From positions 1 to 64,000 of IMG/VR virus record IMGVR_UViG_3300044797_000094: DNA of 64,000 bases; one strand, 5' to 3'. Origin of the DNA: a virus. A model generated the notes under the pieces. That model did no database searches, was not told where the DNA came from, and saw nothing but the letters and a program-made list of their open reading frames with translations. This document shows, piece after piece, positions 4,902-39,338 of this stretch. Each line of letters starts with the position of its first letter. The first letter of the stretch is position 1. The position numbers and the translations under genes were made by a program.

Positions 4902-5597
4902 ATGCCGGGAAAGAGGACAAGAAAACGAGATCGAATTTGGAAAGAACGCGAACGCGAAGCGAAGCGAGTGGAAGCCGAAAATCAAGCGGCGCCAATTCGG
5001 CCAGAAGAAATAACGACTGCTGATTTAGTCGCCGAAAAGACTGGAAAAAGCGGCGTCACGTATATTCCAGAGATCGTTTCTGGCATGGATGATGGGGAAG
5101 GGGGAAAAGTAATTCGCCCCGCCGAAATCGCGATTGCGAGGCGGGCGATTCGGGAAGACTGGCCGCTCGAACCGGAGAAGCGAAATCAGCTCATGGAAGA
5201 GTTATACAAAGTCGCGATGACGAAGCCGAAAATTGTGGCCGGCGCACCTGATCCAGGTCGGGCAATCCGGGTTTCATCGACGACCCGCGTCCTTGCGATG
5301 CGAACGCTCGTGATGGCCGATGGAATCAACGCCAAACGAGAGCAAATCGACGTAACCGCCGCCAGAGCGAATCTTGGCGTCAAAGTCAACGTAAACGTCG
5401 GCGTCAGCGTGTCTCAGCATGTTCAGGCCGCTGTCGCGGCGGAGCCGGAATATTTGGAGTGGTTGCGTGAGCGAGCCTACCCCGCAGATCGAGACGCCGA
5501 TGCTTTGGGCCGCGACGATCTCAAAACGGAAATTCTTACTGCCGACGCATGTCAGGGTGATGGACAAGGCGGTGACGGACACGATTCAGGGAATTGA
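4902..5597 (+). CDS. Putative terminase small subunit
   Basis: 231 residues with a highly basic and acidic N-terminal helix (RTRKRDRIWKERE), a middle region with helical segments, and a polar, Asp/Gly-rich tail. Position immediately upstream of the large terminase supports the call, but no helix-turn-helix is certain by eye. The last 43 codons overlap the start of terL in another frame. The family role is to recognise phage DNA and hand it to TerL. It could instead be an unrelated packaging gene. Confidence 0.5.
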   Translation: MPGKRTRKRDRIWKEREREAKRVEAENQAAPIRPEEITTADLVAEKTGKSGVTYIPEIVSGMDDGEGGKVIRPAEIAIARRAIREDWPLEPEKRNQLMEELYKVAMTKPKIVAGAPDPGRAIRVSSTTRVLAMRTLVMADGINAKREQIDVTAARANLGVKVNVNVGVSVSQHVQAAVAAEPEYLEWLRERAYPADRDADALGRDDLKTEILTADACQGDGQGGDGHDSGN

Positions 5598-6951
5598 CGG
5601 CATTCGGCGGTTGATGATTTGCATGCCGCCTCGGCACGGCAAAAGTTCGTACGCCTCTCAATATTTCCCGTCCTGGTTTCTCGGTACGTTCCCAGACAAG
5701 CGTGTGATCCTCACGAGTTATGAAGCGTCATTCGCGGCCACATGGGGACGGAAGGCTAGAAACCTTTTGGAAGAACACGGTGGACTCTTTGGCGTTCGCG
5801 TCGCATCGTCGCCCAGTGCCGCCGATCAATGGGACATCGAAGGAAATACGGGCGGGATGGTGACGGCTGGGGTCGGCGGCCCAATTACTGGCCGCGGCGC
5901 GGACTGTGCAATTATCGACGACGCCTTAAAAAACTTTGAGGAAGCGTCATCGCAACTTATTCGGGATAAGATTTGGGACTGGTGGCAGTCGACGTTGTAT
6001 ACTCGCCTTGAGCCTAACGCCGTGGTCGTGATGGTAATGACTCGGTGGCATGAAGACGACCTCTGCGGACGAATCATCGCAAGCGTCAAGTCCGGCGAAA
6101 GTGAACGCTGGCGAATGCTTCGCCTTCCAGCGATAAACAGTCAGAATCTCGCGCTATGGCCAGAGCGATATTCATTGAAGGATCTTCATCAGATTCGTCG
6201 ATCAGTCGGCCCGCATCATTGGGAAGCCCTCTACCAGCAAAATCCGACGGCGAGGGAGGGTTCTTTCTTCAAGGTCAACAAGTTCAATTATGCGCCTTCG
6301 GAACCAATTGGGCTTCGGACTGTCCGAGCGTGGGACTTGGCCGCGACGGAAGGCGACGGCGACTACACGGCGGGAGTGAGGATCGGCATCGACAATGAAG
6401 GGCGAGTTTACGTCTGCCATGTCCAACGCGGCCAATGGGCGACGGACGAACGGGACCGATGGTTGAAATCGACGGCGGTTGAAGACGGCTATGGAACGAT
6501 GATTCATTTGGCGGAAGACCCAGGCCAGGCGTCGAAATCGCAGATGCTGACGCTTTCCCGTCTACTGAACGGATTCAGCGTCAAAAGCCTTCGTGTGACC
6601 GGCAAGAAAACCACGCGGGCCGACTCGTTCAGTTCTCAAGTGAATATGGGAAACGTCTGGCTTGTGAAGGGAAGCTGGAACGGTCCCTACATCGAAGAAT
6701 TGAGGCAATTCGACAAAGGTAAAAATGATGATCAAATCGACGCATCGGCCGACGCCTACAATGAATTGACGCAAACCACAAATCAATATTACGTCGCGAC
6801 CGGAGGCGACAGAGACGACCGAGAAATTGAGCATCATCCCTATGGCGGCATGGTGGAAAAAGACGACGATTTAGAAGAAACTCCGCCTCCAAAAATAGAC
6901 AAGCCCGTTTCGTATCCGTATCACGTGGGCGGCACAGATCGAGTCTACTGA
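5467..6951 (+). CDS. terL: Terminase large subunit
   Basis: 494 residues from GTG 5467, chosen because GGAG lies seven bases upstream; an in-frame ATG at 5419 has no such support. The ATPase part has Walker A MPPRHGKS (residues 53-60) and a Walker B-like DCAIIDDA. The C-terminal RNase H-like nuclease part has RAWDLAATEGDGDYTAG with the first metal Asp, an EDPGQASKSQ motif, and a final NDDQIDASADAY with Asp residues. It packages DNA into the prohead and cuts the concatemer. It is complete, with no frameshift. Confidence 0.95.
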   Translation: MSEPTPQIETPMLWAATISKRKFLLPTHVRVMDKAVTDTIQGIDGIRRLMICMPPRHGKSSYASQYFPSWFLGTFPDKRVILTSYEASFAATWGRKARNLLEEHGGLFGVRVASSPSAADQWDIEGNTGGMVTAGVGGPITGRGADCAIIDDALKNFEEASSQLIRDKIWDWWQSTLYTRLEPNAVVVMVMTRWHEDDLCGRIIASVKSGESERWRMLRLPAINSQNLALWPERYSLKDLHQIRRSVGPHHWEALYQQNPTAREGSFFKVNKFNYAPSEPIGLRTVRAWDLAATEGDGDYTAGVRIGIDNEGRVYVCHVQRGQWATDERDRWLKSTAVEDGYGTMIHLAEDPGQASKSQMLTLSRLLNGFSVKSLRVTGKKTTRADSFSSQVNMGNVWLVKGSWNGPYIEELRQFDKGKNDDQIDASADAYNELTQTTNQYYVATGGDRDDREIEHHPYGGMVEKDDDLEETPPPKIDKPVSYPYHVGGTDRVY

Positions 6952-8505: not shown

Positions 8506-8887
8506 AGACGTCAAGATCAGTATTCCCCTCAGGGAAATCATAGCCATGAACGAATCCGTAAAAGCCACGCCGGAAATACGTCGGCGAATCAAACTGAAAT
8601 CAATCCTTGATCGCTGGTCGACCTGCACAATCAGCGTGGAAGACGCGGAAACAGAATTGAGCGATCTTCTGGCGTCGAAGGAACTCGGCCCGCTCGACGT
8701 CCAAAGCGGAAAACTGAAGATCACCTCCGAGCGTGGCATGGCGTTCGATACCATGGTTGAAATCAATGGCCAATCATTCGACTGGGGCGAAAAACTGACG
8801 CTGATCATTGAGGCCGGGATGAAAAATCGTATCCTGATCGAAGGATGCCCGGTTAATTTTGACGGTCCGAAAAAGGAACAATCGTGA
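8495..8887 (+). CDS. Hypothetical protein with CTIS-ED motif
   Basis: 130 residues. A helical segment ILDRWSTCTISVEDAETEL (about residues 37-55) closely matches LLTKWTACTISLEDFNTEM near the C-terminus of the two-repeat Clp_N protein encoded at 11.3 kb, so the two share a small domain. The C-terminal half is beta-rich. It overlaps the next gene as GTGA. Function is unknown; the shared segment may be an interaction motif used by this phage. Confidence 0.6.
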   Translation: MSYKDVKISIPLREIIAMNESVKATPEIRRRIKLKSILDRWSTCTISVEDAETELSDLLASKELGPLDVQSGKLKITSERGMAFDTMVEINGQSFDWGEKLTLIIEAGMKNRILIEGCPVNFDGPKKEQS

Positions 8888-10680
8888 GTGCCACGACGCC
8901 ATATCCGTTCATCGAACCAACGGGCGTCTACGGCTGGCCAACACAATTCATGCCGGCGTCGACCGCAGTACTCGACTGGAACTACCTTGACGATTTTAAC
9001 CCGTCAACAATCGCGGCGGTTCCGGCTCAAGGGTCTGGTTCCTCCATTTTCTCATCGCCGGATGAATATGAACCGGCATCGTTTGTCATCGTGGCGGCGT
9101 CTCAGATGGATGACGTTGTGGTCTCTGTCTCTGATCTCGGCAATGGCGGTGATACAATCCCGTCCGAGAATGTCACGATTCGTCGCGTCGTACGAACTCC
9201 GATGCGGAATCTCTACACTGATGCGGCCCATCTGACGACGGTTGGGCGATTTTTGCCCACATGGTCGGCTCTCACGATTCCCGCTGGTGAGTTTCGCCAG
9301 GTATGGCTGACTGTCCACGTGCCGCCGGGAACGAAGGCTGCAACCTACGCCGGGACGGTCAGGATCAGTTCGTCTCAGGGCTCGATCAATTGGCCGCTGT
9401 CCGTTGAAGTCCTGCCGATTCAACTTCTCAGCGATCCGGGCAAGACGCTCGGAATGCAATACAACCTGCAACAGCGATTGGCCGATGTCAGAACGGGCGC
9501 GGCGACGACGGAATTGATAACGCAGGAAATTGCCGATCTTGCGGCGCATGGCGTGACGTCGATCGTGCCGAGCCTGCAGATCGATTTCTTCAAGAATTCT
9601 TCCGGCGAGCCTTATTACGATCTCACGAACTTCGTGACGGGAATGAATCTCCTGCTAGACGTGGGGATCGAATGGACTGCGATCGTTGTCCTGCCGAACC
9701 TGAACGAATTGGCTCTGTTGTTAGGTCATACCGACGTGTTCGATCCGACGGCGGGAACAATAGGGGACGGCGCTTCGTTGGCGGCGGATGCGACGTTCCA
9801 AATGATTGCGAAGGCGGCGATCCAGGCTTTGCACGGAACAATCAGCGGCCTGAAGCTCTCGTCGAAACAGACATTCGAGGTGATCTATAAGAATCTGGAC
9901 GAGATCTTCGACGACCAATTCGACGGTTCGCAGGCCCCTTTATACGTTCAGTACGCCAAAACATGTCAAAATGTACCGGGATTGACGCTTGGAACGACGC
10001 TTTCCACCAGGAACGCCACAGAGATTTCGGAACTAACGACTGTCGCTCCCTACGTCGCCGTGCCGATCAATCAGGGCTTTACATTTGAATGGTATCTTGC
10101 CACGCCAGGAAGCTCGGTGCAGACGTATCTCAACTTCCTGAAAGCCATGAAGCAGACGGCGTGGTTCTACCATAACGAACGCGGGGCGTATCATACGCCT
10201 GCATGGAAGCGGATCATCAACGGCGTCTACTTCTGGTCGATGCCGTTCGCGTGCCATATTCCGTGGTGCTATCAATACGACGAAGTCGCGAACCCCTTCG
10301 ACGCGAGCGCCGGTGACAAATTCAATGACTTCGGGTTCTCGTTTTCCAATGCGCCAGGGTCGACGACGTTCGTGCCGACGCGAAGCTGGGAAGCCATGCG
10401 TGAAGGATGGGACGACGTCCGGTATTTCCACACGCTTCAACAAGCGATGGCGACGCCGGGAATTTCAGCGGAGAGCCTTGCGTCCGCGCATCAGTTTTTC
10501 TCCAGACTCCAGGCGTTAATCGAGAGTGTAGACCTGGCAGGATACGAGCCGGAGGCGGGACTCGCGAAGGAATCGCCAATCATATCGTGGCTCGCAAGCA
10601 GGATGACGGGGGCTGATTGGCAGTTACTGAGAAAAGAGGCGGCATATTTGATCGTCGAAATACAAGGGTCCGGGACATGA
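8884..10680 (+). CDS. DUF4091 / GH123-like glycan-active protein
   Basis: 598 residues from a GTG that overlaps the previous stop. The N-terminal half follows the layout of GH123-like proteins: a beta-sandwich with PDEYEPASFVIVAAS, then LTIPAGEFRQVWLTVHVP and the strand SINWPLSVEVLPIQL. A TIM-barrel-like part follows, and the C-terminus matches DUF4091 (RSWEAMREGWDDVRYF). GH123 members cleave N-acetylgalactosaminides using a substrate-assisted Asp-Glu pair. I cannot place that pair securely here, so activity is uncertain. It may be a virion depolymerase acting on the host surface glycan. No signal peptide is seen. Confidence 0.7.
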   Translation: MSATTPYPFIEPTGVYGWPTQFMPASTAVLDWNYLDDFNPSTIAAVPAQGSGSSIFSSPDEYEPASFVIVAASQMDDVVVSVSDLGNGGDTIPSENVTIRRVVRTPMRNLYTDAAHLTTVGRFLPTWSALTIPAGEFRQVWLTVHVPPGTKAATYAGTVRISSSQGSINWPLSVEVLPIQLLSDPGKTLGMQYNLQQRLADVRTGAATTELITQEIADLAAHGVTSIVPSLQIDFFKNSSGEPYYDLTNFVTGMNLLLDVGIEWTAIVVLPNLNELALLLGHTDVFDPTAGTIGDGASLAADATFQMIAKAAIQALHGTISGLKLSSKQTFEVIYKNLDEIFDDQFDGSQAPLYVQYAKTCQNVPGLTLGTTLSTRNATEISELTTVAPYVAVPINQGFTFEWYLATPGSSVQTYLNFLKAMKQTAWFYHNERGAYHTPAWKRIINGVYFWSMPFACHIPWCYQYDEVANPFDASAGDKFNDFGFSFSNAPGSTTFVPTRSWEAMREGWDDVRYFHTLQQAMATPGISAESLASAHQFFSRLQALIESVDLAGYEPEAGLAKESPIISWLASRMTGADWQLLRKEAAYLIVEIQGSGT

Positions 10681-11341: not shown

Positions 11342-12190
11342 ATGTGCGGAATGGGATATTGGAACGGGGAAGGATTCAAGCCGGCTGAGGCACGAGCGAA
11401 AATCGCCTTTCTCGCGTTTCATGATGAAAAAGGGTCGACCATGTATGAGAGCTGGACCGACAGATCCCGTAAAGTTATGCAATTGGCGAATCAAGAAGCC
11501 CGGCGATTCAACCACGAGTACATTGGCACCGAGCACATCTTGCTTGGCCTGGTCAAGGAAGGATGCGGCGTCGGGGCGAAGATTCTGGAAGGCCTTGGCG
11601 TCGATATGCAAAAGGTCCGATTTCAAACCGAGAAGATCGTCGGCTCGGCGCCTGATCACATAATCATTGGAAATCTTCCGTTTAATGAAGACGCGATGAC
11701 GGTGATTGATCAATCCGGAAGGCAAGCTTATGTCTTGAATCACAAATACGTCGGAACGGAACACATCCTTTTAGCTATCTCGTCGTGTCCGAGTTCGATC
11801 GCTTATAAGATCCTTGTGGCTCTCGGAGTGGTCGGAGAAACAATCCAGCGTAGCATCGGAGAGATCATGGAGGCAACTCCGGCGATGCCAGGCGAAATGA
11901 CAATCAAACTTCCCGAGTATTTTTCTACCATCCTGTCAAAAACAGAGCCCGTCGCAGTCGGAATCGCCGAACCGAGCGCGAAGAAAGCGTACGAATACGC
12001 AATGAAAGCGTGGAAACAAAAGCGGCTTCAAGATCTTCGCTCTCTTCTTACAAAATGGACCGCTTGCACAATCTCGCTTGAAGATTTCAATACCGAGATG
12101 GAAAAGCTGTACGAATGGATAGACATGGATGCGGCAATCAAGCTGCCGCAGAGCGTCGCTCCGCAATCTGACGTTACGAAAATCGACTGA
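11342..12190 (+). CDS. Stand-alone two-repeat ClpC N-domain protein
   Basis: 282 residues, ATG preceded by AAAGGAA. After a 33-residue lead, two Clp_N repeats follow: the first starts YESWTDRSRKVMQLANQEA and includes EYIGTEHILLGLVKEG, the second includes HKYVGTEHILLAISS. Both are very close to the substrate/adaptor-binding domain of ClpC. The AAA+ modules with Walker motifs are absent, so it cannot unfold proteins by itself. The C-terminal region carries LLTKWTACTISLEDFNTEM, shared with the 8.5 kb gene. It may compete for ClpC adaptors or redirect the host ClpCP protease; that is inference. Confidence 0.85.
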   Translation: MCGMGYWNGEGFKPAEARAKIAFLAFHDEKGSTMYESWTDRSRKVMQLANQEARRFNHEYIGTEHILLGLVKEGCGVGAKILEGLGVDMQKVRFQTEKIVGSAPDHIIIGNLPFNEDAMTVIDQSGRQAYVLNHKYVGTEHILLAISSCPSSIAYKILVALGVVGETIQRSIGEIMEATPAMPGEMTIKLPEYFSTILSKTEPVAVGIAEPSAKKAYEYAMKAWKQKRLQDLRSLLTKWTACTISLEDFNTEMEKLYEWIDMDAAIKLPQSVAPQSDVTKID

Positions 12191-12232: not shown

Positions 12233-15200
12233 ATGGGCAAGCGAGGTCGCAGGTTCCGTAAATCCAGGCAGCAGAACGACGAACGAGAAATCGTCGCGGA
12301 AGTTCCATCGATTCAGAAGTCCTATCACGTCGCGACTTCATCGACGAGCGCCGCTTTGGGGCCTGCCTTGGCGGGTGCCTATGTCGGTGGCGGCTGGATA
12401 AGTGACCACCGTGAAGAGGTGCGTCACTTCCGGCATTTCTCGTACGTCGCAATCCACCAGATCGCGCAGCAGTTGTCGTCAGCGACAGTGACGGCGTTCG
12501 CGGACGAAGATAATCAATGGGACAATCAGTCGCGTAGAAAGTCTCTGCGGGTGAAATTCGGCAGTCTCGATCGATATAAATCCATCTACGGAAAAGAGGA
12601 CGACACATCAACCAAGGCGTTAAATTCCAGTCATGCATTGATGAAGCTGCTGGCCAAGCCGAACCCGTGGGAGTCCGGATACGACTTTCGATATCGGCAA
12701 ACAATCCAAATCAGGCTCACTGGCGCATGCTACATTTGGAACGTGCCAAGTCAATTGCGAACGCCTGACGCTCCGAATGGCGTGCCGTGCCAGCGATTCG
12801 TCATCCCAACGGCGGCCGTCACGCCGATGATGCCAACGGCGGAGTTGCCCTATGGCGGATTTCTCGTTCAGCCGTATTGCTCTCGGTACGCTCCGATCGA
12901 CGAGGACAGCGGATATGTCCGTGGCTCACCTGGCTGGATGCGGCTTCTTGGCCGAGTCGTCGATGCCCGAGAAATCCAGAAGATCGGCTATCCTCATCCT
13001 TTGTGGCTCGATGACTGGCAGAGTCCAATTGCGGCCGGTGATGCGTGGGTCGATATGGAAGAGGCCGTAAATCGAGCGAGGACGGCAAGTACACTGAATG
13101 GCGTTGACCCGTCATTGGTCTGGGAGCTGCCGCCAAACATCAAATTGTCGCCAGACATGATGGACAGGACGCAATCGGCAATCCAGAAAAAGTATGGCGG
13201 TCCATATAATCAGAGTCGAGTTTTGGTGACGGAAAGCGGAACGAAAGTCACGCCAACTTCCGGCGTCCCGAAGGACATGTGCTATCCAGAGGGATTCCAG
13301 GACGTCAAAACGGCGATTCTCTCGCTTCATGGGACGCCGCCAGTCGCGGTCGCGATGCAAGAACCTGGGGCGTACGCGTCGTACATCGCGTCCCTGAAAG
13401 CGTGGAACCACGCGACGATTAATCCACTCTGCGAGAAATTTGGAGAATCCGACACGGCTCATCTCGCTCCATTCTTCGGGGAAGGTTTGACTGTTGAATA
13501 CGAACCAAAAAGTATCCAAGATCCGGACAACGATCTAAAGCTTTTGACGATCCTGGCATCCACTAAAAAGGTCATCAGAGTCAACGAGCTTCGCGCCAAA
13601 TGCGACATGGAGCCGCTGGAAGGACCGGAAGGCGATGCATTCGTCAATGACGACCCGGTTCCAGGAATGCCGCAAGCGAAGCCAAATGGCGTGAATTTGG
13701 GCCGTCCGGACGCGGAAGCGTTGAAGCCGATAGTCAAGCCCGCTGAACCGACCACGCCATTCGAACGCGACGACGGGAACAAGTCACTTTTGGCGGCATT
13801 GGAAGGATTCCGCGAAGAGGACGAGGAATTCGTCCAGCGAAAACTCGGATCGCTGATCGAGAAAGCGGTTGCGGCGAAGCTGAAATCGCTGGAGCCCGGC
13901 GAAGAACCGCGAAAGTACGCGTCGACTCAATTCAATCTGCCGGACGAACTGGCCGATCAAGTACGGAAAATGGGCCAGAGAATCGACCTTGACGACTTGG
14001 CGGAAGACGGACTGGAGGATGAGCCTCACGTGACAATCCTTTATGGACTCACGGAATCCAGCCCCCAATCCGTCAAGCGAGCGTTGTCGGGCTTCCCTGC
14101 TGGTCGGATAGAACTTGGAATGTCGTCTCTGTTCGCGGCGAACGGAACGGAAGCGAGTCGAGGCGGTCCACAATTCGACGTCCTGAAGCTAGACGTTGGC
14201 GGCGATTACATCCATCGAATCCACGATCGACTCGCCGACAAATGCGACTACGAAGTCAGTTGGCCGCTCTACGTGCCACACGTCACGATCGGATACCTAA
14301 GGCCCGGACGAGGCAGAAAATACGTCGGCATGACGGACGTCGAAGGCGAAACATTCCTTGCCGACAAAATGACGTTCTCGAATCAGCAAAAAGACGTGTC
14401 GGTGATTCGGCTGCAACCCCCAGTCAAATCCCGCCAGTCCATCATCGAGCGTCAATTGGCTCATTCCAACGGCAACGGACGAACGAATGAATGGCACGGA
14501 AAAGCGTACGATCCATCGGAGGCGAGGGATGAAAGCGGAGAATGGACGGGGGGGGCTTCGCAACCTGATTCTAAGAAGCCCAATAAGCCGTCAAAAAACG
14601 CTGCGATCTGCCAGATGACCGGGCTGCCGTTCGAAGGTCGCGGGAAGAACCATCCAAAGCTGCGAGAAGTGCTTGACGACGCGATGAAGGATGGCGCCAG
14701 GAATCAGGTGATTGAAGCGATTAAGGACGCTAAAAACCGTGGAACGAACAACATTGAGGATTTTGTCCGCATCGCCAACGAGGCGATTGGAAAAGGCAAG
14801 GAAGATCGACGTCAGGATCGCCGCGAGCAAGTCGAATTGGAGGATGATAGGCGTCGCGAATCACGGGAACGCGACGATCTAAATCGCAAACTACGCGCCG
14901 CTGGATATCGTTGGTCGAAAGAGGGAAATCAAAATTGGCGTGAAACGCCGGAGCAAACTCCGGAATCCCACTTCGAATCCAAATGGGTGCTTCGTAATCA
15001 TCAAGGGGATGTCGTTTCGCTTGATGATGCCAAAAAAGAAATAGCATCCAACGAAAAGTCACTCGGCATGTCAACAGGCGTCGGCGACGACGGCGGCTTC
15101 GCGGTCAAGCCGGAACTGCCGGGCGAACCAAGCAACGAACAGCTCAGAACCCTCTACGGAAACTGTCCGTTCTGTTCTGGCGAAGTCACAGGTCGCGATT

Positions 15201-16597
15201 CCGATCGAATGACTGACACGTGCGATCAAGGTCACTCCTATCCATCGAAGCTGTCAATATTCGATCGACCGTCCGAAGGCGACGTCGCAACAAGCGCTGT
15301 GAATGACGGTCCAATGGGGAACCTGAATGGATTCGCCGATCCATCTGAGAAATCCAACGATCTGATCGACAATACGGAATTCGGGGCGTGCCCTCTGTGC
15401 GGCCAAGACGCGATCATGAGGGAGCGGCGATGGTACGGAAATGTGCCGTATGACTCGTGTTGCAACGGGCACGAGTTCCCGGCTGGAGTCATCGCGACTG
15501 GTGTTCCAAAAGAAAAAACAGCCAAGGCGCATCTTCAGGCTTCACGCAAGTCCTCCGCCTCTGGAGGTCAGTGGATTACACTCAAGCCCCATGGTGGTAA
15601 TGAAGGCGGCTATCTGCATGTCATGATCGATGAGAGTGGCGAGATCCAATCCGGCCCGAAGGAAATGAGAGACAAGAAGCCGAACCAGATTGAATCGCAC
15701 CGTGAGGTCAAGCAGAAACAGAAGTCTCCGCAGAGTCCGCAAGTTGGCACTCCCGATAGCCAAACGGTATCTCAGTCGGAGCAAACAAAAAAAGAATACC
15801 ACGATAGGCTGAGCAATTTGGCATCATCGCCGGTGAAAAGCAGCAAGCCGCTCAGCGGTCATCGAAATCTCAACGAAACACACATCGTGGCGCTGAAAAA
15901 CGGTGACAAGGGAGTTTGGAAACCGGCGTCAGGAGAAACATCATTCGATCACAACGGAGAGCCGATTAGACCCAACATCCCCGCTGGAACACAGCATAAG
16001 AGGGAAGCGGCCGCCAGCGCCGTTGCCGACGCTATTGGACTTCATGATCTAGTCCCAGCCACAACGCTCCGGACGATGGAAAAGGGCGAGAAGAAAGAAA
16101 TCGGATCGCTGCAACATTTCTCCGAACATGGCATTCCGGCGCACGCGACCGCTCGTGACGCGAAATATGATGGCGATCGCGATCTGGCGAGAGCCGCCGC
16201 ATTCGATATTCTGACGTCGAACACCGATCGTCATTTGGGAAACTGGATGGTCACGCACGGGCTAAGTGCACCGAACGATCTGTCATCGGAAAATAAAAAA
16301 TACAATATTGACAAGGAGCATAAGCTCGTTTTGATTGATCACGGGCTGGCATTCCCAGAAAGCGGCGGGAATGGCCGCAGTGGATTAGTCAATATGGCTG
16401 AGCACAAAAAGCTTCCGGTGCCGAATGAAGTTCTAAAATGGGATTCAGCTTCGATCGACGAGGCAATGAAAAAAAACGGCATTGAACCGCGGGCCAGGAG
16501 ACTGGCTCTTGATCGCCTGTCGCAACTCCAGTCTCTTGCGAAAGATGGCAAGACATTCGCGGATGGTTTCAATCAGGACGTGATTCACAGCTATTGA
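12233..16597 (+). CDS. Portal protein fused to 2H phosphoesterase, zinc ribbons and PI3/4-kinase-like domain
   Basis: 1454 residues, two to three times a normal portal. Residues 1-480 are an HK97-type portal (the DNA-entry ring). Two HxT motifs, HVTILYG (599-605) and HVTIGY (683-688), mark a 2H phosphoesterase / RNA-ligase-like domain. Around 765 is a linker with EARDESGEWTGG. Two zinc ribbons of C-x2-C...C-x3-H type follow (CPFC..., CPLC...). The C-terminus is a PI3/4-kinase-like fold of the SCO1664 type: GVWKPASGE with Lys1230, TNTDRHLGNW-type catalytic loop with Asp1332 and Asn1337, and LIDHG with Asp1369. All key residues are present. The frame is continuous; independent initiation or proteolysis cannot be excluded. 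Confidence 0.85.
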   Translation: MGKRGRRFRKSRQQNDEREIVAEVPSIQKSYHVATSSTSAALGPALAGAYVGGGWISDHREEVRHFRHFSYVAIHQIAQQLSSATVTAFADEDNQWDNQSRRKSLRVKFGSLDRYKSIYGKEDDTSTKALNSSHALMKLLAKPNPWESGYDFRYRQTIQIRLTGACYIWNVPSQLRTPDAPNGVPCQRFVIPTAAVTPMMPTAELPYGGFLVQPYCSRYAPIDEDSGYVRGSPGWMRLLGRVVDAREIQKIGYPHPLWLDDWQSPIAAGDAWVDMEEAVNRARTASTLNGVDPSLVWELPPNIKLSPDMMDRTQSAIQKKYGGPYNQSRVLVTESGTKVTPTSGVPKDMCYPEGFQDVKTAILSLHGTPPVAVAMQEPGAYASYIASLKAWNHATINPLCEKFGESDTAHLAPFFGEGLTVEYEPKSIQDPDNDLKLLTILASTKKVIRVNELRAKCDMEPLEGPEGDAFVNDDPVPGMPQAKPNGVNLGRPDAEALKPIVKPAEPTTPFERDDGNKSLLAALEGFREEDEEFVQRKLGSLIEKAVAAKLKSLEPGEEPRKYASTQFNLPDELADQVRKMGQRIDLDDLAEDGLEDEPHVTILYGLTESSPQSVKRALSGFPAGRIELGMSSLFAANGTEASRGGPQFDVLKLDVGGDYIHRIHDRLADKCDYEVSWPLYVPHVTIGYLRPGRGRKYVGMTDVEGETFLADKMTFSNQQKDVSVIRLQPPVKSRQSIIERQLAHSNGNGRTNEWHGKAYDPSEARDESGEWTGGASQPDSKKPNKPSKNAAICQMTGLPFEGRGKNHPKLREVLDDAMKDGARNQVIEAIKDAKNRGTNNIEDFVRIANEAIGKGKEDRRQDRREQVELEDDRRRESRERDDLNRKLRAAGYRWSKEGNQNWRETPEQTPESHFESKWVLRNHQGDVVSLDDAKKEIASNEKSLGMSTGVGDDGGFAVKPELPGEPSNEQLRTLYGNCPFCSGEVTGRDSDRMTDTCDQGHSYPSKLSIFDRPSEGDVATSAVNDGPMGNLNGFADPSEKSNDLIDNTEFGACPLCGQDAIMRERRWYGNVPYDSCCNGHEFPAGVIATGVPKEKTAKAHLQASRKSSASGGQWITLKPHGGNEGGYLHVMIDESGEIQSGPKEMRDKKPNQIESHREVKQKQKSPQSPQVGTPDSQTVSQSEQTKKEYHDRLSNLASSPVKSSKPLSGHRNLNETHIVALKNGDKGVWKPASGETSFDHNGEPIRPNIPAGTQHKREAAASAVADAIGLHDLVPATTLRTMEKGEKKEIGSLQHFSEHGIPAHATARDAKYDGDRDLARAAAFDILTSNTDRHLGNWMVTHGLSAPNDLSSENKKYNIDKEHKLVLIDHGLAFPESGGNGRSGLVNMAEHKKLPVPNEVLKWDSASIDEAMKKNGIEPRARRLALDRLSQLQSLAKDGKTFADGFNQDVIHSY

Positions 16598-16617: not shown

Positions 16618-18198
16618 ATGCAAATAATTCGAGTGTCAGGAAACATCGATGGCGAAGACGTCGATTTCGGCGACGTGTGCCTTGACGACGGCCGACTGCA
16701 CTGTCGCTCGTCGTCAGGTCTTGGCCGACGAGTTATGCAAAGCATTCTTGACGAGCCCGTCTACAGCCCTCGAGGCGACGTTACAGCAATTGAAAATCCC
16801 GAAGAATTCTTTCTGCGGCTGCCGACAACCTACCGATCGTACGCGTTGCGGGCTTACCCAATCGATGACGGCTCGGCAGATGCCGCCGAGAAGGCGTTAA
16901 AGAGGGACGTCACAGGAGAGGCAAGAGATCAAACTGGTGAATGGACCTCGGGAGGCGCTTCGACAAAGCCAAGCGTAACGGGAACTCCACGCGTTCCGAA
17001 GCCTCCGACATCGAAGCCATCAAAGAAACCAAATGCCCCGAAGATTGATGAGGATGACGAAGAATCCGGCGGTCGATTCGCAAAGCCTCCCACGCAACGC
17101 GGAGAGATGGTCTATGCCAAGCGAGTCGGCACTGGCAAGAACGTGAAGATCGTTTTGTCCGACGGATCGACTGCGCCGGAGCACATGCAAAAACTGGCCG
17201 GAAGTATTCCGCCGGACTGGAGTGAAGTCAAGATCGCAAAAGATCCGTCAATGGACGTGCTCGTTACAGCAAGAGACCCAAACGGCAATTCGAAGTTGGT
17301 TTACAACGACGCCTACGAAAAACGGAATGAGGCGATTAAGTTTGTGCGTGCGGCGGATATGGTCGCGAATCATGATGTGATTTTGAAAGAGTTCGCCGAA
17401 GATCGACTCAAGTCGGAAACGAGAGAACAAGCGGACTGTGCTCGATTAATGTTGGCCCAGGCGACGAGACCCGGCAGCGAATCTGACAACAAGGGCGTCA
17501 GCAAATACTTCGGCAAATCATTGACTCCAGATGATGTTGTTCTAACGAAAAGCGACAATCCCAAAATCGCAATCATCGGCAAGCAAACCGACGCGCAAAA
17601 GAAAGCGGCCGCCAGCGGTAAAGATGTCGTCGCAATCAATGTCAATGGATCGCTCGTCGTCATCAAGGATAAGAAAACGAAGGCGGAATTATTGAAACGA
17701 GCCAACGAAGGCGGCGACTTGCACGACTCGACGTACTGGCTGAAATCGCACGGCGCGACGACGCTGGAGGGACGACATGTCGTTGAAGCTCCGGATGGGA
17801 CGCGGCTTAAATTTGTCGGAAAAGAAGGCGTCTTCCACGATCACCTGGTCAAAGATCCGGAAGTCGCGAAGATGCTTTTGGAACGCAAAGCGAAATCCGG
17901 CGACACAGGACAGTTATTCAACACGAACGAGATCAAGCTGCGAGATTACGTCAAGACAAAAGACGGCGGCGACTTCCTCTCGAAAGATCTGCGGACCGCT
18001 CGGGCGAACATGATTGCGATCGACGAAATCAATAAGATTCCGGCCCCGAAAACAGACAAGGAATACAAAGCCAAGCGTGATCTTGTGGGGCAGCGGGTGG
18101 CGCATGTGCTCGGAAACGAAATCGCACAGAGCCTAAAGTCATACATTTCGCCGGAATTGTTCTCAGATTGGAGAATCAACGCGGGCGTGCAGGGATGA
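16618..18198 (+). CDS. Type IB DNA topoisomerase-like protein of the head module
   Basis: 526 residues. The first 100 are unique; at about 104-116 lies EARDQTGEWTSGG, matching the linker in the portal fusion. The C-terminal half has topoisomerase IB signatures in order: TRPGSE (Arg284), KFVGKEGV (Lys402), SKDLRTAR (Arg459), LGNE (Asn500, where poxvirus enzymes have His and bacterial ones Asn) and SYISPE (Tyr509, the nucleophile). The enzyme would relax supercoils by a 3'-phosphotyrosine intermediate. The portal-adjacent position and shared linker suggest it is packaged or acts at the portal. A tyrosine recombinase is less likely because of the GK-x-G hairpin and KDLRT. Confidence 0.75.
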   Translation: MQIIRVSGNIDGEDVDFGDVCLDDGRLHCRSSSGLGRRVMQSILDEPVYSPRGDVTAIENPEEFFLRLPTTYRSYALRAYPIDDGSADAAEKALKRDVTGEARDQTGEWTSGGASTKPSVTGTPRVPKPPTSKPSKKPNAPKIDEDDEESGGRFAKPPTQRGEMVYAKRVGTGKNVKIVLSDGSTAPEHMQKLAGSIPPDWSEVKIAKDPSMDVLVTARDPNGNSKLVYNDAYEKRNEAIKFVRAADMVANHDVILKEFAEDRLKSETREQADCARLMLAQATRPGSESDNKGVSKYFGKSLTPDDVVLTKSDNPKIAIIGKQTDAQKKAAASGKDVVAINVNGSLVVIKDKKTKAELLKRANEGGDLHDSTYWLKSHGATTLEGRHVVEAPDGTRLKFVGKEGVFHDHLVKDPEVAKMLLERKAKSGDTGQLFNTNEIKLRDYVKTKDGGDFLSKDLRTARANMIAIDEINKIPAPKTDKEYKAKRDLVGQRVAHVLGNEIAQSLKSYISPELFSDWRINAGVQG

Positions 18199-24029: not shown

Positions 24030-24041
24030 AAGATGCGGCCA

Positions 24042-24980
24042 ATGAAAATCCTCGTCACCGGCGGAGCTGGCTACCTCGGGTCCGTGCTCGTAACGGATCT
24101 GCTGTATTCCGGATACGACGTCACAGTCCTGGATTTGTTCAAAGGCGATTCAAGCCGATCTTTGGTTGAATTGTGCGGATCGAAGGAAGTGCGGTTCACG
24201 CCGATCAAGGGGGATGTCCGCAACTTGACTGACCTCAGCGTCGCAATGGCTCGATGCGACATCCTAATTCCATTGGCGGCTATTGTTGGCGCTCCAGCAT
24301 GCGAGGATGATTGGGGCGCGACCAGCACAAACCTCAGCGCCATCGAACAAATGATTGGATTGCGATCGCAGAGCCAGGCAATCCTTTTTCCATGCACAAA
24401 CAGCGGCTACGGAATCAGCAGGCATCATGAAATCTGCGACGAAGAATCGCCACTGGCACCGATCAGTAAATATGGCAGATTGAAGGTAGCGGCCGAGAGG
24501 ATCGTCTTGAATGACGGAAACAGCGTGACATTCCGCTTCGCCACCCTGTTCGGTTGTTCCCCTCGAATGCGACTGGATTTGCTCGTCAATGACTTCGTTT
24601 ATCGGGCCGTGAAAGACCGGTCGATCATCGTGTTTGAGGGACACGCCAAGCGAAACTACTTGCACGTGCGAGATGCCTCAAGAGCCTTTCTCCACGCAAT
24701 CGAAAACTTCGAAGCGATGGAAGGCCGCCCGTACAATGTGGGCCTGTCAGACGCGAACCTGTCCAAGCTGGAGTTGTGCGAGCGAATCAAGCGACATGTG
24801 CCGGAACTGTTTTACAGCGAATCGCCGATTGGAGAAGATCCAGACAAGCGGGACTACGTCGTGTCGAACAAGCGAATTGAAGCGACTGGCTTCAAACCGA
24901 AGTATTCGCTGGACGATGGGATCAGGGAATTGATCAAGGCGTATTTGATGCTGGATGCCGCGAGATACAGGAACGCTTGA
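24042..24980 (+). CDS. NAD-dependent sugar-nucleotide epimerase/dehydratase
   Basis: 312 residues, an extended short-chain dehydrogenase. The N-terminal Rossmann motif is VTGGAGYLG. The active-site region has NSGYGIS and YGRLK (Tyr-x3-Lys), and RNYLHVRDASRAF follows as in epimerases. It acts on an NDP-sugar in the cytoplasm. It overlaps the next gene by one base and begins a sugar cluster with a C-methyltransferase and a second reductase. The exact sugar is not determined by sequence alone. Confidence 0.85.
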   Translation: MKILVTGGAGYLGSVLVTDLLYSGYDVTVLDLFKGDSSRSLVELCGSKEVRFTPIKGDVRNLTDLSVAMARCDILIPLAAIVGAPACEDDWGATSTNLSAIEQMIGLRSQSQAILFPCTNSGYGISRHHEICDEESPLAPISKYGRLKVAAERIVLNDGNSVTFRFATLFGCSPRMRLDLLVNDFVYRAVKDRSIIVFEGHAKRNYLHVRDASRAFLHAIENFEAMEGRPYNVGLSDANLSKLELCERIKRHVPELFYSESPIGEDPDKRDYVVSNKRIEATGFKPKYSLDDGIRELIKAYLMLDAARYRNA

Positions 24981-25156
24981 TGGAACGCTTCAATGAGCGA
25001 GCGATCTGGGTTGCAGCGTGCGGCATTCTCATCGTCTGCAATCTCTTGCTTCGTGCCGATCTCGGAAACACTCAACATGATTTACGGATGGCGATTGAGC
25101 GTGAGCGAACATTGAATCGAATGTTGGACGTCATGATAGACAAGGACAATCGGTGA
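24980..25156 (+). CDS. 58-residue membrane protein
   Basis: Residues 8-25 form one hydrophobic segment (AIWVAACGILIVCNLLL), followed by a charged helix. It overlaps the epimerase by one base and the methyltransferase by GTGA, so it is translated with them. It may anchor the sugar enzymes or a glycan step to the membrane, but no family is recognised. Confidence 0.6.
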   Translation: MERFNERAIWVAACGILIVCNLLLRADLGNTQHDLRMAIERERTLNRMLDVMIDKDNR

Positions 25157-26373
25157 GCCTTACAAACTGCCGCATATGCGATTCCACAAAACTGGATTTA
25201 ATCCTCGATCTCGGCATGCAACCCTGGGCAAATCACTTTCTCAAGAAAGAGGAGTGTGGCACAGAACCGAAATATCCGCTTCGATTGGTTCGTTGCGACG
25301 AATGTTCGCTCGCTCAATTGGATTTCACCGTGCCGAAAGAAACGATGTTCGTCGATCACACGTATCTGAGCGGCACGACGAAATCTCTCGGCACCCATTT
25401 CAAGAAAGTTGCGGATGATGTGGTTGATCGATTCTTCGGACCGTACCCGCGAAATCGATCTGTTCTTGACATTGGATCGAACGACGGGACACAGCTCAGG
25501 AATTACAAGGAGAAGGGATGGCGAGTCCTGGGATGCGAACCGTGCAATAGCGCGGCGAAGATGGCGAACGATTCAGGAATTCCCACATTGATCAATTTTT
25601 TCAGGGCCGGTTTTTCGGAGGCATGTGGGACATTTGACGTCATCAATGCTTCTGGCGTCCTGTTCCATTTGGAGGATCTTCATTCTGTCATGGAGGAAAT
25701 TCGCCGAGCATTGAAGCCGCAGGGGATCTTCGTCGCCCAATTCCTCTACATGCCCAGCATCGTCGAAAACTGCGCCTTCGATCAAATCTATCACGAACAC
25801 TTGCTTTACTACACGATGAAGACGTTTTGCGACCTGATTGAACGACACGGACTACACTGCTTCGATGCTTATTTTTCGCCGATCCACGGAGGGTCAATCG
25901 TCGCGTTCTGTGAGCACAAAAGCATCGACAATCTGACATCGTATCGGCTCGATCAATTGCGGGGCGGAGAAGAAGAAATTGGAGCGAACATGAAAGAGAC
26001 GTACGAAGGGTTCGCCAGGTCAGTGTTTGCGAAGCGACTTGAACAGAGGAAGCAATTAAACGGCTGGCGGATGCTGGACAAAAAGGTGTTCGGATTAGGC
26101 GCTCCGGTTAAAGGCAACACATTGCTGAATTACTGCCGAGTCGGGCCTGAATTGATCGAGTGTCTCGTCGAACGCAATTCGCTCCGTCGCGGACTCTGTG
26201 CCCCCGGCTCGCATATTCCTGTCGTGATGGAGGACGAACTGACGGAAGATCCAGACGTCTATTATGTTCTGGCGTGGAATTACAAGGGTGAGATTCTGGA
26301 ACGGTACGAGGATAAGATCGAAGCGGGCGTCGAGTTTTACTTTCCGATCAATCCGAAAGGTGTCGCATCGTGA
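25153..26373 (+). CDS. Sugar C-methyltransferase (NovU/TylC3 type)
   Basis: 406 residues in the usual three-part layout: an N-terminal zinc-binding part (NCRICDS, RCDECSL), a SAM-binding Rossmann domain with LDIGSNDGTQL, and a C-terminal domain with YHEHLLYYT and GLGAPVKGNTLLN. These are hallmarks of SAM-dependent C-methyltransferases that methylate C-3 or C-5 of deoxysugar nucleotides. GTG start overlaps the preceding stop. With the adjacent epimerases it would make a branched or methylated deoxysugar. Confidence 0.85.
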   Translation: MSLTNCRICDSTKLDLILDLGMQPWANHFLKKEECGTEPKYPLRLVRCDECSLAQLDFTVPKETMFVDHTYLSGTTKSLGTHFKKVADDVVDRFFGPYPRNRSVLDIGSNDGTQLRNYKEKGWRVLGCEPCNSAAKMANDSGIPTLINFFRAGFSEACGTFDVINASGVLFHLEDLHSVMEEIRRALKPQGIFVAQFLYMPSIVENCAFDQIYHEHLLYYTMKTFCDLIERHGLHCFDAYFSPIHGGSIVAFCEHKSIDNLTSYRLDQLRGGEEEIGANMKETYEGFARSVFAKRLEQRKQLNGWRMLDKKVFGLGAPVKGNTLLNYCRVGPELIECLVERNSLRRGLCAPGSHIPVVMEDELTEDPDVYYVLAWNYKGEILERYEDKIEAGVEFYFPINPKGVAS

Positions 26374-28706: not shown

Positions 28707-29557
28707 AGGTGTTCTGCGCATCGACAAACATTAGTCCGGTCAGTCATCAACTCGGAACCGTTGGCAACGAATCGATCGTGAATGTCGAGGACGTCCGAAC
28801 GCCGCTGGGTTCGAGAAAAGTTCCGGTCCTCAGCGGGAACGCGATTCGGCATCGGATGATCAGGGCTCCCGGCGCGGATTATCTCATTGACGCCCTGGGC
28901 CTTCATGGAAAGCTGTCGCGGGACGTTCTTAATCTTCTTTATCACGGAGGAATCAAACGAGAAAAAGGGAAAAGCCCATCGCTGGCGAGAATCGCGGATA
29001 TGCATCGGTTGTTTCCGCTGCTGCGATTACTCGGTGCTTGCCTGCCGGAAGCGATCGTCGCCGGTGAACTCACGGCGCATCGAGCCATGCTGGCGTGCCG
29101 AGAGAATCAGTCGCGGATCAATGCCATCGCTCCGAAAGGCTGGGAATTTGAAGGACACCTCGCGCCTGCGACGTCGTTCATCGAGAGGTGGCAATACGTG
29201 CGAGGCGTGATGAAGCATTCACTCGCGCATTCGGCCACTGACACGACCGACAAGGATGAATCGACAATGATGCCCTTCGCGGGAACGTGCGTGATTCCCG
29301 GAGCGGTCTGGGTTCATGGGTTCTCGATGTCGATATGTTCGCAAATTGAGTTCGGTTGCCTTTTGCATTGTCTGCGGAAATGGGATGCGGACGGTGCGAC
29401 GATCGGCGGACAATCATCGCGAGGGCATGGTATTCTGCAATTGTCGATTTGGACAGACGCCGAGTTTGATCACGATGAATCGATATCAGCATACGAAGAG
29501 CACGTCGATGACAATAAGGGCGATTGCGTGGAATTTCTTCGAGGTTGCTATTCATGA
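28703..29557 (+). CDS. csf2: Csf2-like backbone subunit (Cas7, type IV)
   Basis: 284 residues from ATG 28703 overlapping the previous stop. It begins with a short RAMP strand and then PVLSGNAIRHRMIR (residues 41-54), the SGNxIR motif at the start of the Cas7 thumb region in type IV Csf2. A glycine-rich segment near residue 240 (IGGQSSRGHGILQL) fits a RAMP RNA-binding loop. Csf2 polymerises along the guide RNA. No catalytic residues are expected. Continuous frame, no truncation. Confidence 0.8.
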   Translation: MKVFCASTNISPVSHQLGTVGNESIVNVEDVRTPLGSRKVPVLSGNAIRHRMIRAPGADYLIDALGLHGKLSRDVLNLLYHGGIKREKGKSPSLARIADMHRLFPLLRLLGACLPEAIVAGELTAHRAMLACRENQSRINAIAPKGWEFEGHLAPATSFIERWQYVRGVMKHSLAHSATDTTDKDESTMMPFAGTCVIPGAVWVHGFSMSICSQIEFGCLLHCLRKWDADGATIGGQSSRGHGILQLSIWTDAEFDHDESISAYEEHVDDNKGDCVEFLRGCYS

Positions 29558-30279
29558 GCCTGATTAAGTCGCCAAAGCACACGGCTTCGGACTTGACTGT
29601 CTGGCGCGAATTGGAATACGCGGATCGAGTCCATGCCAGGCATGGAGCGCTGCGAAGAAAATGGGACAGGTGCTTAAGTCTCGCGAAAGAATTCGCCGAT
29701 GGTGGACCTTGTCACTGCTCGACGAGCTGGGGAAAGGACTCCGTGGTGACGGCATTCGCGGTAATGACTGTCGCTCCGAAAACTCCGCTGTGCTGGATCA
29801 GGGTAGAACCCGTCAAGTCGCCAGAATGCGTTCTTGTGCGAGACGTTTTTCTGAGGAGATTCCCGAAATGCGATTACCACGAGACCGAGGTCGTCTGCGA
29901 GAAAGATGAGGATGGATGGCATGCGACGGGAACGCTCGAAAAAGGAATCAAGATTCTTGATGAGCGATTCGGCCCGCGAACGATCCTCGGTATTCGAGCC
30001 GAAGAATCGTCTCACCGTTTCCTGAGTATCGCATCAAGCGGTTGCAACACGAAGAATAAATCGAGGCCGTGCGGATCGCTGACAGAGAAAGACGTCTTCG
30101 GATTGCTGAGCATGCACGATCTGCCGATCCATCCCGCATATGCGATGACCGGCGGCGGAAGGTGGCCCCGAGAACACTTACGGGTCGCGTCGCTCGGCGG
30201 AAAGCGTGGGCAGGGCTTCGGGCGGCTGGAATGGGAGCGTGAATATTACGCAGACGAACTTCGGAGGATTGGAGAATGA
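29554..30279 (+). CDS. CysH-like PP-loop (PAPS reductase family) protein
   Basis: 241 residues from ATG 29554 overlapping csf2. The PP-loop STSWGKDSV (56-64) binds ATP or PAPS, and GIRAEES (146-152) is a typical PAPS-reductase family motif. The C-terminus (HPAYAMTGGGRWPREHLR) resembles phosphoadenosine-phosphosulfate reductase-like proteins. CysH-like genes accompany type IV-B loci, and here it lies inside the operon, between csf2 and csf3. Its enzymatic role in this system is unknown; sulfur or nucleotide chemistry on an RNA or protein is possible. Confidence 0.85.
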   Translation: MSLIKSPKHTASDLTVWRELEYADRVHARHGALRRKWDRCLSLAKEFADGGPCHCSTSWGKDSVVTAFAVMTVAPKTPLCWIRVEPVKSPECVLVRDVFLRRFPKCDYHETEVVCEKDEDGWHATGTLEKGIKILDERFGPRTILGIRAEESSHRFLSIASSGCNTKNKSRPCGSLTEKDVFGLLSMHDLPIHPAYAMTGGGRWPREHLRVASLGGKRGQGFGRLEWEREYYADELRRIGE

Positions 30280-30989
30280 AGACGCGATTCGTCAAGGTGA
30301 CGGCGCACCTGATATCGCCAGTCGCGTTGTCACCGGAAGGCGAAGCCCCGCATCTGGACGCGATTTGTGAACTTGTTCTCGCTCAGCACACGAGATCGAT
30401 CGCGGCATCCTCCAACGGAAATCGGCATCTTCTCGACGTCGCCAAGATTCGTGGACAGGAAGTGTCAGCTCAGGGGCAATTGCCGATACCGATCGTGCGT
30501 GAGAAGGTCGATGGCATCCCGGTTCCGCGATGTTCGTTCGGCATCATGGAAAAGACTCAAGAAACCGCCGAGCATTACCACTGCGCGTTCCCGATTGAAC
30601 GGGCGATTGAGGTCAGCGAGAAGGAGCGGATTCAGATCAGGACGACGGGCGGCGTCTACAAATCGGTCAGGTTGCCGCTGCGATTGTCGACGACATCGCG
30701 GATTGTCTGGTTCGCCGAACTGCGAGAATCCCCATGCAAATTGCGAAAACTCGTCAATCAAATAGAAACGCTCGGAAAGAAATCGGTGTACGGTTATGGG
30801 CGAGTTTCGGAATGGACCGTGGAAGAAACCGATATCGACGCAAGTTGGTTTCATGGCGGCGTGTTGATGCGTGCTCTCCCGATTTCAGTCGTGTCCGACG
30901 ACATTCAGGGGAAGCGACGATCATACGGAGCTGTCGCAGGCCCGTATTGGCAGCGATCATTTTTTGTCGATCGATACGTCCCGTATTAA
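30276..30989 (+). CDS. csf3: Csf3-like subunit (Cas5, type IV)
   Basis: 237 residues. ATG overlaps the cysH stop. The protein starts with a RAMP-like beta strand (RFVKVTAHLISPVAL) and has the glycine-rich loop GKKSVYGYGRV (167-177) followed by SEWTVEE, as in Cas5/Csf3. It would cap the 5' end of the guide. The conserved C-terminal tail (GPYWQRSFFVDRYVPY) is similar to Csf3 ends. The stop is directly adjacent to the stop of the convergent hddA gene, with no intergenic base. Confidence 0.8.
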   Translation: MKTRFVKVTAHLISPVALSPEGEAPHLDAICELVLAQHTRSIAASSNGNRHLLDVAKIRGQEVSAQGQLPIPIVREKVDGIPVPRCSFGIMEKTQETAEHYHCAFPIERAIEVSEKERIQIRTTGGVYKSVRLPLRLSTTSRIVWFAELRESPCKLRKLVNQIETLGKKSVYGYGRVSEWTVEETDIDASWFHGGVLMRALPISVVSDDIQGKRRSYGAVAGPYWQRSFFVDRYVPY

Positions 30990-37952: not shown

Positions 37953-39338
37953 ATGGCTGATCTCGCAACCCTCGAAACTCGCGTCGAAGACCTCGTCAAG
38001 AAGAACGAGGCATTGGCGTCGGAAAATAAGTCCTTTAAGTCGCAAATCGATAAGCTTGCGGAAACTCCAAATCATGCCGGAATCCATGCGGCCCCCGGCG
38101 TCACATCGTCCTTCGACGACAACGACGTCGAATCCGCCACGCTCGTCTACGATTTCACGTCGTCGTATCGCGGGAATATGGCGACCCAGACCGGCGGACA
38201 AACTCGATCAGACCGGCATACGGCGATGAAGTCGATCTGGAAAACTCTGAAATCCAGTGGATATCAGCGATGCGGCGCGACGGGATCAGGCTTCAAGAGC
38301 TTTAAGGATTTCGTGCTCCAGGGACTCGAAGACAACGGGCGCACTCAGGGCTTCCGCGACAACTACAAAAAGCACATGGATCCTGTCTTCAAGACAATTC
38401 AGGGGATGTCCGAATCCATCGGCACTGACGGTGGATTTGGCGTGATTCCTGAATTCAACCTGAAGATCCATGAGCACGTCTACGCAAATAATCTTTTCGC
38501 CCGCACTGACGGCTATACCGTTTCCGGCAACAACATGACGTTTCTGGCGAATGCTGAAACGAGCCGAAAAACGGGCTTCCGGGCTGGCGGCCTGCAAGCC
38601 TATTGGACGGGTGAAGGTTCTTCGATCACCCCGAGCAAGCCGACGATCCGCGAAATCCAGATGAAGCTGCAAAAGCTGGCCGTCGTGGTCTATCTGACGG
38701 ATGAGCTTCTCAAGGACAATGCGATTGCCCTGGAGCAATACGTCACCCGCAAGGTGTCGGACGAATTCGCGTGGATGATGGGCAACAGCCTGTTCAACGG
38801 AACCGGCGCTGGTCAGCCGCTCGGAATCATCAACTGCCCGAGTCTCCTGGTCATCGCGGCGGTCGGAGGCCAATCAACGCTCACGATCGTCAGCGGCAAC
38901 ATCATCACGATGCAAAACCGCCTGTTCGCTCCCTATATGGAAAATGCAAGCTGGTTCGTGAATCAAGACACGATTCAACAGTTGATGCAACTCACGTTGG
39001 CTACTGGAACGTATTCCGGTCAATTGGTCTACATGCCGCCGACAGGGTTGGCGGGATTGCCTTACGGAACGCTGGGTGGTCGGCCTGTCGAGCCGATCGA
39101 ATTCGCGGCGAGCCTCACGACTCAGGGCGATATCACATTGGCTGATTTGGGTCAAATCATCTCGATCACGAAAGGTGGAATTCAGCAGGCGGTTTCCATG
39201 CATGTGGAATTCCTGACCGATCAGATGGCGCTGAGATTCACGATGCGACTCAATGCTCAACCGTGGGAGAACAGCCCGATCACTCCGGCAAACGGCACGA
39301 ACACTCAGTCCAGCTTCATTCAATTGGCTTCGCGATAA
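37953..39338 (+). CDS. Major capsid protein, HK97 fold
   Basis: 461 residues, AAAGGA before the ATG. Residues 3-37 are a coiled coil (ATLETRVEDLVKKNEALA), the delta-domain usually removed by the protease. The body has the HK97 pattern with GTDGGFGVIPEF near the P-domain start, GAGQPLGIINCP and LADLGQIISITKG in the A-domain. It forms the icosahedral head. No frameshift or split is seen. Confidence 0.95.
   Translation: MADLATLETRVEDLVKKNEALASENKSFKSQIDKLAETPNHAGIHAAPGVTSSFDDNDVESATLVYDFTSSYRGNMATQTGGQTRSDRHTAMKSIWKTLKSSGYQRCGATGSGFKSFKDFVLQGLEDNGRTQGFRDNYKKHMDPVFKTIQGMSESIGTDGGFGVIPEFNLKIHEHVYANNLFARTDGYTVSGNNMTFLANAETSRKTGFRAGGLQAYWTGEGSSITPSKPTIREIQMKLQKLAVVVYLTDELLKDNAIALEQYVTRKVSDEFAWMMGNSLFNGTGAGQPLGIINCPSLLVIAAVGGQSTLTIVSGNIITMQNRLFAPYMENASWFVNQDTIQQLMQLTLATGTYSGQLVYMPPTGLAGLPYGTLGGRPVEPIEFAASLTTQGDITLADLGQIISITKGGIQQAVSMHVEFLTDQMALRFTMRLNAQPWENSPITPANGTNTQSSFIQLASR

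Follow-up and report, generated by a model that had tools for sequence, protein, structure and literature searches.

Fusions of the portal, or of MuF proteins, to 2H phosphoesterase domains were published in 2017 by Iyer et al., who proposed that the enzymes are injected and may cut immune nucleotides or RNA (PMC5512222); fusions of portal and MuF proteins to effectors are also treated in PMC9503650. Among the 2H enzymes, the anti-CBASS nuclease Acb1 cuts cyclic oligonucleotides by means of an HxT/HxT tetrad (PMC9117128). Here, we describe a gene in a 64,000-nucleotide stretch of virus DNA (the window; positions 1 to 64,000 of the IMG/VR record IMGVR_UViG_3300044797_000094, whose full length is 76,387 bases). 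In a single chain of 1454 amino acids (aa) it encodes an HK97-type portal, a 2H domain, a linker tag, two zinc-ribbon motifs and a kinase resembling type II phosphatidylinositol 4-kinase (PI4KII; table 1). As judged by sequence comparison, this arrangement is not a one-off, because its cargo domains recur on several unrelated head scaffolds.

A preliminary description of this DNA had claimed one 1454-residue frame holding a portal, a 2H phosphoesterase, zinc ribbons and a kinase of the PI3/4-kinase kind, and the composition is borne out by domain matches and by intact key residues. The coordinates are correct, the frame is free of internal stops across its 1454 codons (at the local stop frequency an open frame of this length would arise by chance at ~1e-17), and its start is preceded by GGAG, a ribosome-site-like sequence. 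In 15/15 blocks of 100 codons the coding potential of this frame beats that of the other five, which gives no indication that an error joined two genes, and the base composition at the three codon positions continues unbroken along the chain. The search for a convincing internal start ahead of the kinase within this frame found none. A free kinase produced from such a start was accordingly rejected as a product of the gene: no ribosome-site-like sequence precedes the kinase, and the sole hit, a GTG at codon 600, falls within a 2H motif. At the N-terminal end, Pfam Phage_portal (PF04860) matches at 92.7 bits (cut-off 39.1) over profile positions 27-319 of 321.

The two HxT motifs of the 2H domain (H599/T601 and H683/T685) do have the spacing claimed for them, which fits the 2H rule of ~80-90 residues, and both histidines are invariant in an alignment of 25 relatives. 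The window chain matches Pfam 2_5_RNA_ligase2 over aa 593-690 (E=2.4e-4) at 21.6 bits, under the cut-off of 27, unlike several family members that score above it. A scan of IMG/VR with an alignment built on four phage 2H seeds yielded 80 loci (L-numbers denote the relative loci that were fetched); many of these encode a long chain whose 2H domain is found at residue 450-750. The portals found N-terminal to it by Pfam are of the HK97 type (L010, L033), the Mu type (L009, L017, L022) and the Phage_portal_3 family (L155). A profile of 25 2H relatives ranks Acb1 (E=2.5e-8) above other 2H enzymes as its best solved match in the PDB, and L009 and L034 exceed the cut-off of the Pfam Acb1 model (PF23474). 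The suggestion that the 2H part may cut cyclic nucleotides of host anti-phage signalling therefore stands at the level of the family; the window domain itself fails PF23474, and we infer its possible Acb1 activity from the family relation. The processing of RNA ends is equally a 2H activity.

In the kinase domain Lys1230, Asp1332, Asn1337 and Asp1369 stand exactly where they had been placed, and Pfam PI3_PI4_kinase (PF00454) matches aa 1273-1380 over its cut-off (E=1.4e-7). Across an alignment of 50 sequences the E, D, DRH and N of the active site are invariant, and the K and ID nearly so. Structure prediction, which had been recommended for aa 1180-1454, returned a PI4K-type fold for the kinase domain (aa 1185-1454): the AlphaFold2 model from this alignment has a predicted local distance difference test score (pLDDT) of 89.5 and a predicted template modeling score (pTM) of 0.88, whereas a model from the single sequence (pLDDT 44) was useless. 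With this model Foldseek retrieved PI4KII first (E=1.5e-10, template modeling score 0.63), then Fam20C and then CtkA. The family profile found PI4KII alpha at E=2.7e-21, as well as Fam20C, PI3KC3 and CtkA, and in its alignment to PI4KII the motifs vfKP, NTDR..N and IDnGLaFP line up. The concern that the folds might be unrelated to the 2H and PI3K-like families is thus contradicted, one being 2H/Acb1-like and the other PI4K-like. Membership in the SCO1664 family (TIGR03843), as originally assigned, was rejected on score, the window reaching E=9e-7 and 28.5 bits against an equivalog cut-off of 172.4; by profile and by Foldseek the nearest family is instead PI4KII. CtkA and Fam20C phosphorylate proteins and phosphatidylinositol is absent from most bacteria, and a protein would therefore be a likelier target than a lipid. 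The tandem zinc ribbons that had been described between the two enzymes are present as Cys motifs, but a Pfam scan over both gave no significant match.

Scans for the kinase gave 17 and 61 loci in IMG/VR, the two sets overlapping, and 6 in a genome set; the ratio of 61 to 6 is only indicative because the pattern sets differ between scans. By Pfam, and above the cut-offs, the kinase lies C-terminal to Portal_Mu in L117 and L123 and to a lambda-type portal in L128, to which L113 may be added with a portal match just below. It follows an HK97-type portal in the window, in L152 (portal above the Pfam cut-off, kinase just below) and in L158 (portal just below), and Phage_Mu_F in L115, L120, L126, L130, L139 and L096, while local profiles reveal further MuF-kinase chains. 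In L122 it is joined to a prohead protease (Peptidase_S78_2) plus a 2H domain, and in L155 a portal-2H gene and a MuF-kinase gene are adjacent. The divergent chain of L161 has a 2H domain and then the kinase behind a region that lacks a Pfam portal call; a reading of this region, and its grouping with L152 and L158, mark it as portal-like. Domains of the Zeta-toxin (or Zeta-toxin-like), ADP-ribosyltransferase and acetyltransferase kinds are found in the same chains as the kinase. On the kinase tree, many branches of which are weakly supported, the scaffold labels are as scattered as in shuffles (5 changes for MuF against a shuffled mean of 5.2).

Among the structure matches of the kinase in BFVD are a 1201-aa "Phage portal protein, HK97" and two head-morphogenesis proteins, and the matches from isolates include Mycobacterium phage Onyinye and the haloviruses HSTV-2 and HHTV-1, in both of which the kinase gene, that for gp16 in HSTV-2, lies amid head and tail genes. 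Structure databases thus contain unnamed or automatically named examples of head-borne kinases. We found no published virion proteomics for the two kinase-carrying haloviruses, and tblastn searches of cultured phages with L099 and L117 returned nothing or Myxococcus phage Mx1 only. Since dozens of phages carry the kinase, often on quite different head parts, it is probably a virion-borne weapon.

Two further head loci deserve description. Myxococcus phage Mx1, a cultured system, has its kinase gene at 28851-30710; beside it, flanked by capsid and tail sheath genes, a 1479-aa chain of GNAT, ADP-ribosyltransferase and NUDIX domains is encoded (L002:6423-12726). A chain in L069 (7791-11072) combines 2H, MuF, Hint/intein and endonuclease-like parts, possibly a self-splicing or self-cleaving element in a head protein; L009 has intein/Hint matches as well, and L126 has weak ones.

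The linker of the window chain contains the tag YDPSEARDESGEW, which belongs to a motif of the approximate form [YFW]D..[QK][PHA]R..[G][RK][FW]..GG. A search of the fetched loci gave 41 copies of the motif, 32 of them distinct, where shuffled proteins would be expected to give 0.05. Some of the counted instances had served to define the regular expression, so that 41 is not an independent test, although many of the hits were new. Copies are nearly identical within one phage and different between phages, as in L121 (KYSEDQARDDHGRF) and L131 ([EF][WF]DES[KQ]HPR..DGKF), and the copies of one phage are separated by many synonymous codon differences, suggesting that the peptide is under selection rather than that the DNA was recently duplicated. 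The tag often lies 0-70 residues ahead of the kinase; in the window it stands 412 residues ahead, and it is absent between portal and 2H. It may be a cleavage site, a docking peptide or a plain linker. We propose, as a tentative and still rather doubtful possibility, that this phage-specific tag, repeated before successive cargo, is a cleavage or docking signal in a modular enzyme-loading system of tailed phages that employs portals, MuF proteins, proteases and multi-enzyme chains, and for which the PI4KII-like kinase would be a widespread payload alongside the Acb1-like 2H enzyme and topoisomerase IB (TopIB).

Tags are especially abundant at a few loci. After the portal gene of L121 (3219-13379) come chains of 1818, 973 and 520 aa with eight tag copies close to KYSEDQARD.HGRF, several of them immediately before differing enzyme domains, and with two kinase domains of the window kinase's family. 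L131 (4716-11158) encodes a 1354-aa chain with six tags and a kinase at its end; after it comes a head maturation protease to which a 2H domain is joined. The gp13 of the archaeal virus isolate HHTV-1 (L172:9421-12735), near a gpF-like gene, combines a tag-like WNPALHPRGPDGKF with a kinase that is divergent (E=1e-5).

The gene directly downstream of the portal chain, which the preliminary description left out, as it did the recurrence in other phages, encodes a TopIB that holds the same tag (EARDQTGEWT at 16918-16947). Elsewhere a Mu portal, 2H and TopIB form one chain (L022), as do Phage_portal_3, tag and TopIB (L069), and TopIB lies directly downstream of the kinase gene in L096 and L099. 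These four cases show that the link of 2H, kinase and TopIB to head proteins is not private to the window phage, and the window TopIB probably belongs to the same set of head cargo.

The portal gene (12233) sits between those of the terminase (5419) and the capsid (37953), in the head module of a tailed phage. Directly 5' of it, at 11342-12190, lies a gene for two Clp_N repeats (the ClpC N-domain) without the ATPase (phrog_35667, E=3e-33), possibly a decoy of the host Clp protease. Further upstream (8884-10680) is a protein of 598 aa that has a glycoside hydrolase 123 N-terminal domain, and at 24033-26373 the phage carries genes of the surface-glycan type for a sugar epimerase and a C-methyltransferase.

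Table 1. Features of the portal chain and of the head genes around it (window coordinates).
Feature	Residues	Position	Strand	Evidence
Terminase large subunit		5419..6951	+	Pfam 4.9e-14, PHROG 4e-96
Single open reading frame: portal - 2H - tag - zinc ribbons - kinase	1454 aa	12233..16597	+	Reading frame and coding signal
HK97-type portal domain	aa 124-456	12602..13600	+	Pfam Phage_portal E=3.3e-26; PHROG portal 1e-24; PDB portals pb7, Rcc01684
2H phosphoesterase; H599/T601, H683/T685	aa 561-740	13913..14452	+	PHROG RNA ligase 1.3e-5; Pfam 2.4e-4; alignment; profile
Linker tag YDPSEARDESGEW	aa 759-771	14507..14545	+	Motif search
Zinc ribbon motif 1, CPFC...CDQGH	from aa 978	15164..15244	+	Sequence motif only
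Zinc ribbon motif 2, CPLC...CCNGH	from aa 1053	15389..15481	+	Sequence motif only
Short segment before kinase, GGQWITL...IDESGEIQSGP		15560..15667	+	Sequence; similar segment before kinase in L132
PI4K type II-like kinase; K1230, D1332, N1337, D1369	aa 1185-1454	15785..16594	+	Pfam, alignment, AlphaFold2, Foldseek
Topoisomerase IB, ~80-aa unknown N-terminus	526 aa	16618..18198	+	Pfam Topoisom_I 3.3e-8; PDB TopIB 2e-4; tag
HK97-type major capsid protein		37953..39338	+	Pfam 2.2e-40

HK97-type portals have their C-terminus at the crown, in the capsid interior, and do not leave the particle during ejection. The idea that the fused enzymes sit at the DNA gate and enter the cell with the DNA consequently needs correction: cargo on such a C-terminus is expected inside the capsid, and its delivery needs a release step, for example by proteolysis. 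In the scheme that we favor, some 12 portal copies per head (the twelve per virion already suggested, a figure taken from the usual portal ring) would hold the cargo on the inner, crown side until the linker was cleaved by a maturation protease, and the enzymes would then leave with the DNA. The 2H domain would degrade cyclic oligonucleotide alarm signals or 2',3'-cyclic RNA ends early in infection, and the kinase would phosphorylate a host target, the likelier one being a protein. From the fusion, the intact active sites and the recurrence, all of them observed, we infer this location, release, delivery and choice of substrates. The chain has what characterizes a polyvalent protein, namely several effector domains carried together by a chain whose gene lies amid head genes, and delivery by the virion is predicted for it. 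Taken as a whole, that the portal C-terminus carries 2H and kinase into the capsid to be freed and ejected with the DNA strikes us as an evenly balanced proposition. Several points weigh against it. The presence of the cargo in virions or cells is presumed; the portal stays behind, so release is indispensable and would occur at a putative site; the window tag lies between 2H and kinase, so that a cut at this point would keep the 2H domain attached to the portal. Moreover, the window 2H domain alone finds no match to the Acb1 model PF23474 at E<=1, and the kinase substrate is a guess.

In the main rival explanation the enzymes are never injected but work inside the producing cell, held on the portal while heads are assembled late in infection, for instance by removing alarm nucleotides or modifying defence proteins at the sites where portal and procapsid are sensed. 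Such an alternative has been raised for portal-linked effectors (PMC9503650), and it would suit the window chain, with no tag between portal and 2H, as well as L010, where the 2H domain follows the portal without a tag and ends the chain, and L155, where only a short tail comes after it. Against this, Mu-F proteins bear the same cargo, which also occurs in arrays of many domains such as virion effectors typically show, and linkers that keep recurring suggest modules that can come apart; we regard action in the producing cell as a serious contender that is on the unlikely side. The inclusion of a TopIB, which could act on the packaged genome, would also fit domains that take no part in host conflict but serve the virion itself, by phosphorylating head proteins, processing nucleic acid ends, or managing topology as DNA is packaged and ejected. 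That such tasks explain the fusions is quite unlikely, since most phages assemble without any of these domains, the combinations of cargo vary widely, and related chains bear Zeta-toxin-like, ADP-ribosyltransferase and acetyltransferase domains, which point to effectors.

Many of the recovered chains are MuF-kinase fusions, and temperate phages commonly have toxin domains fused to MuF (PMC5576092), so that the kinase, in keeping with what has been proposed for MuF toxins, might be a polymorphic-toxin-style antibacterial toxin of a temperate phage; with TopIB as the next window gene and no immunity-type gene following, this is very improbable. An artefact of sequencing or assembly that joined two or three genes is scarcely credible. 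Although the exact 1454-aa chain is known from a single copy, its coding frame is continuous and independent relatives show the same joins, portal to 2H, portal to kinase, and 2H to kinase behind a portal-like region (L161), which also contradicts the gene-joining error envisaged at the outset.

If the cargo is indeed delivered by the virion, two enzymes would arrive with the DNA, a nuclease directed at immune nucleotides and a kinase that modifies the host, ahead of gene expression, at the moment when signaling defences must be beaten. The occurrence of a PI4KII-fold kinase across so many unrelated scaffolds suggests a common, unstudied host target, and the tag offers a sequence handle both for finding more virion cargo and for studying how domains fused to portals are released. 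In open-licence papers we found no report of a PI3/4-kinase domain fused to a portal or MuF protein, nor of a tag that repeatedly separates a head scaffold from its enzyme cargo; neither the PI4KII-like kinase, the TopIB link nor the linker tag was found in PMC5512222.

The comparison with known systems is therefore one of shared architecture and differing cargo. Like the polyvalent, MuF and portal effectors described previously (PMC5512222, PMC9503650), the window protein joins a head protein to effectors, including a 2H domain on a portal or MuF protein, and the cyclic-nucleotide idea for portal-2H fusions is already known from the first of these papers. The kinase of that 2017 paper, from which the word HipA is absent, is of a truncated Ser/Thr/Tyr type, whereas the head-borne PI4KII-like kinase differs in type and, not being found in the searchable literature, is apparently new. 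With the MuF polymorphic toxins (PMC5576092) the window shares an effector placed C-terminal on a head protein near portal and terminase genes; it differs in that no immunity gene is seen, and the main text of that paper mentions neither kinase nor 2H. Acb1, the best solved relative of the 2H family, has the same fold family and HxT/HxT tetrad, but in T4 it is a separate small protein, whereas the 2H domain here is part of a portal chain. The SCO1664 family resembles the window kinase weakly in sequence over the N-lobe and catalytic loop, and the score lies far below its cut-off. The closest likeness is to PI4K type II, Fam20 and CtkA, with which the kinase shares its fold and the motifs xxKP, NTDRxxxN and IDxGLxFP; it is set apart from them by riding on a phage head scaffold and by a lipid activity that we deem unlikely.

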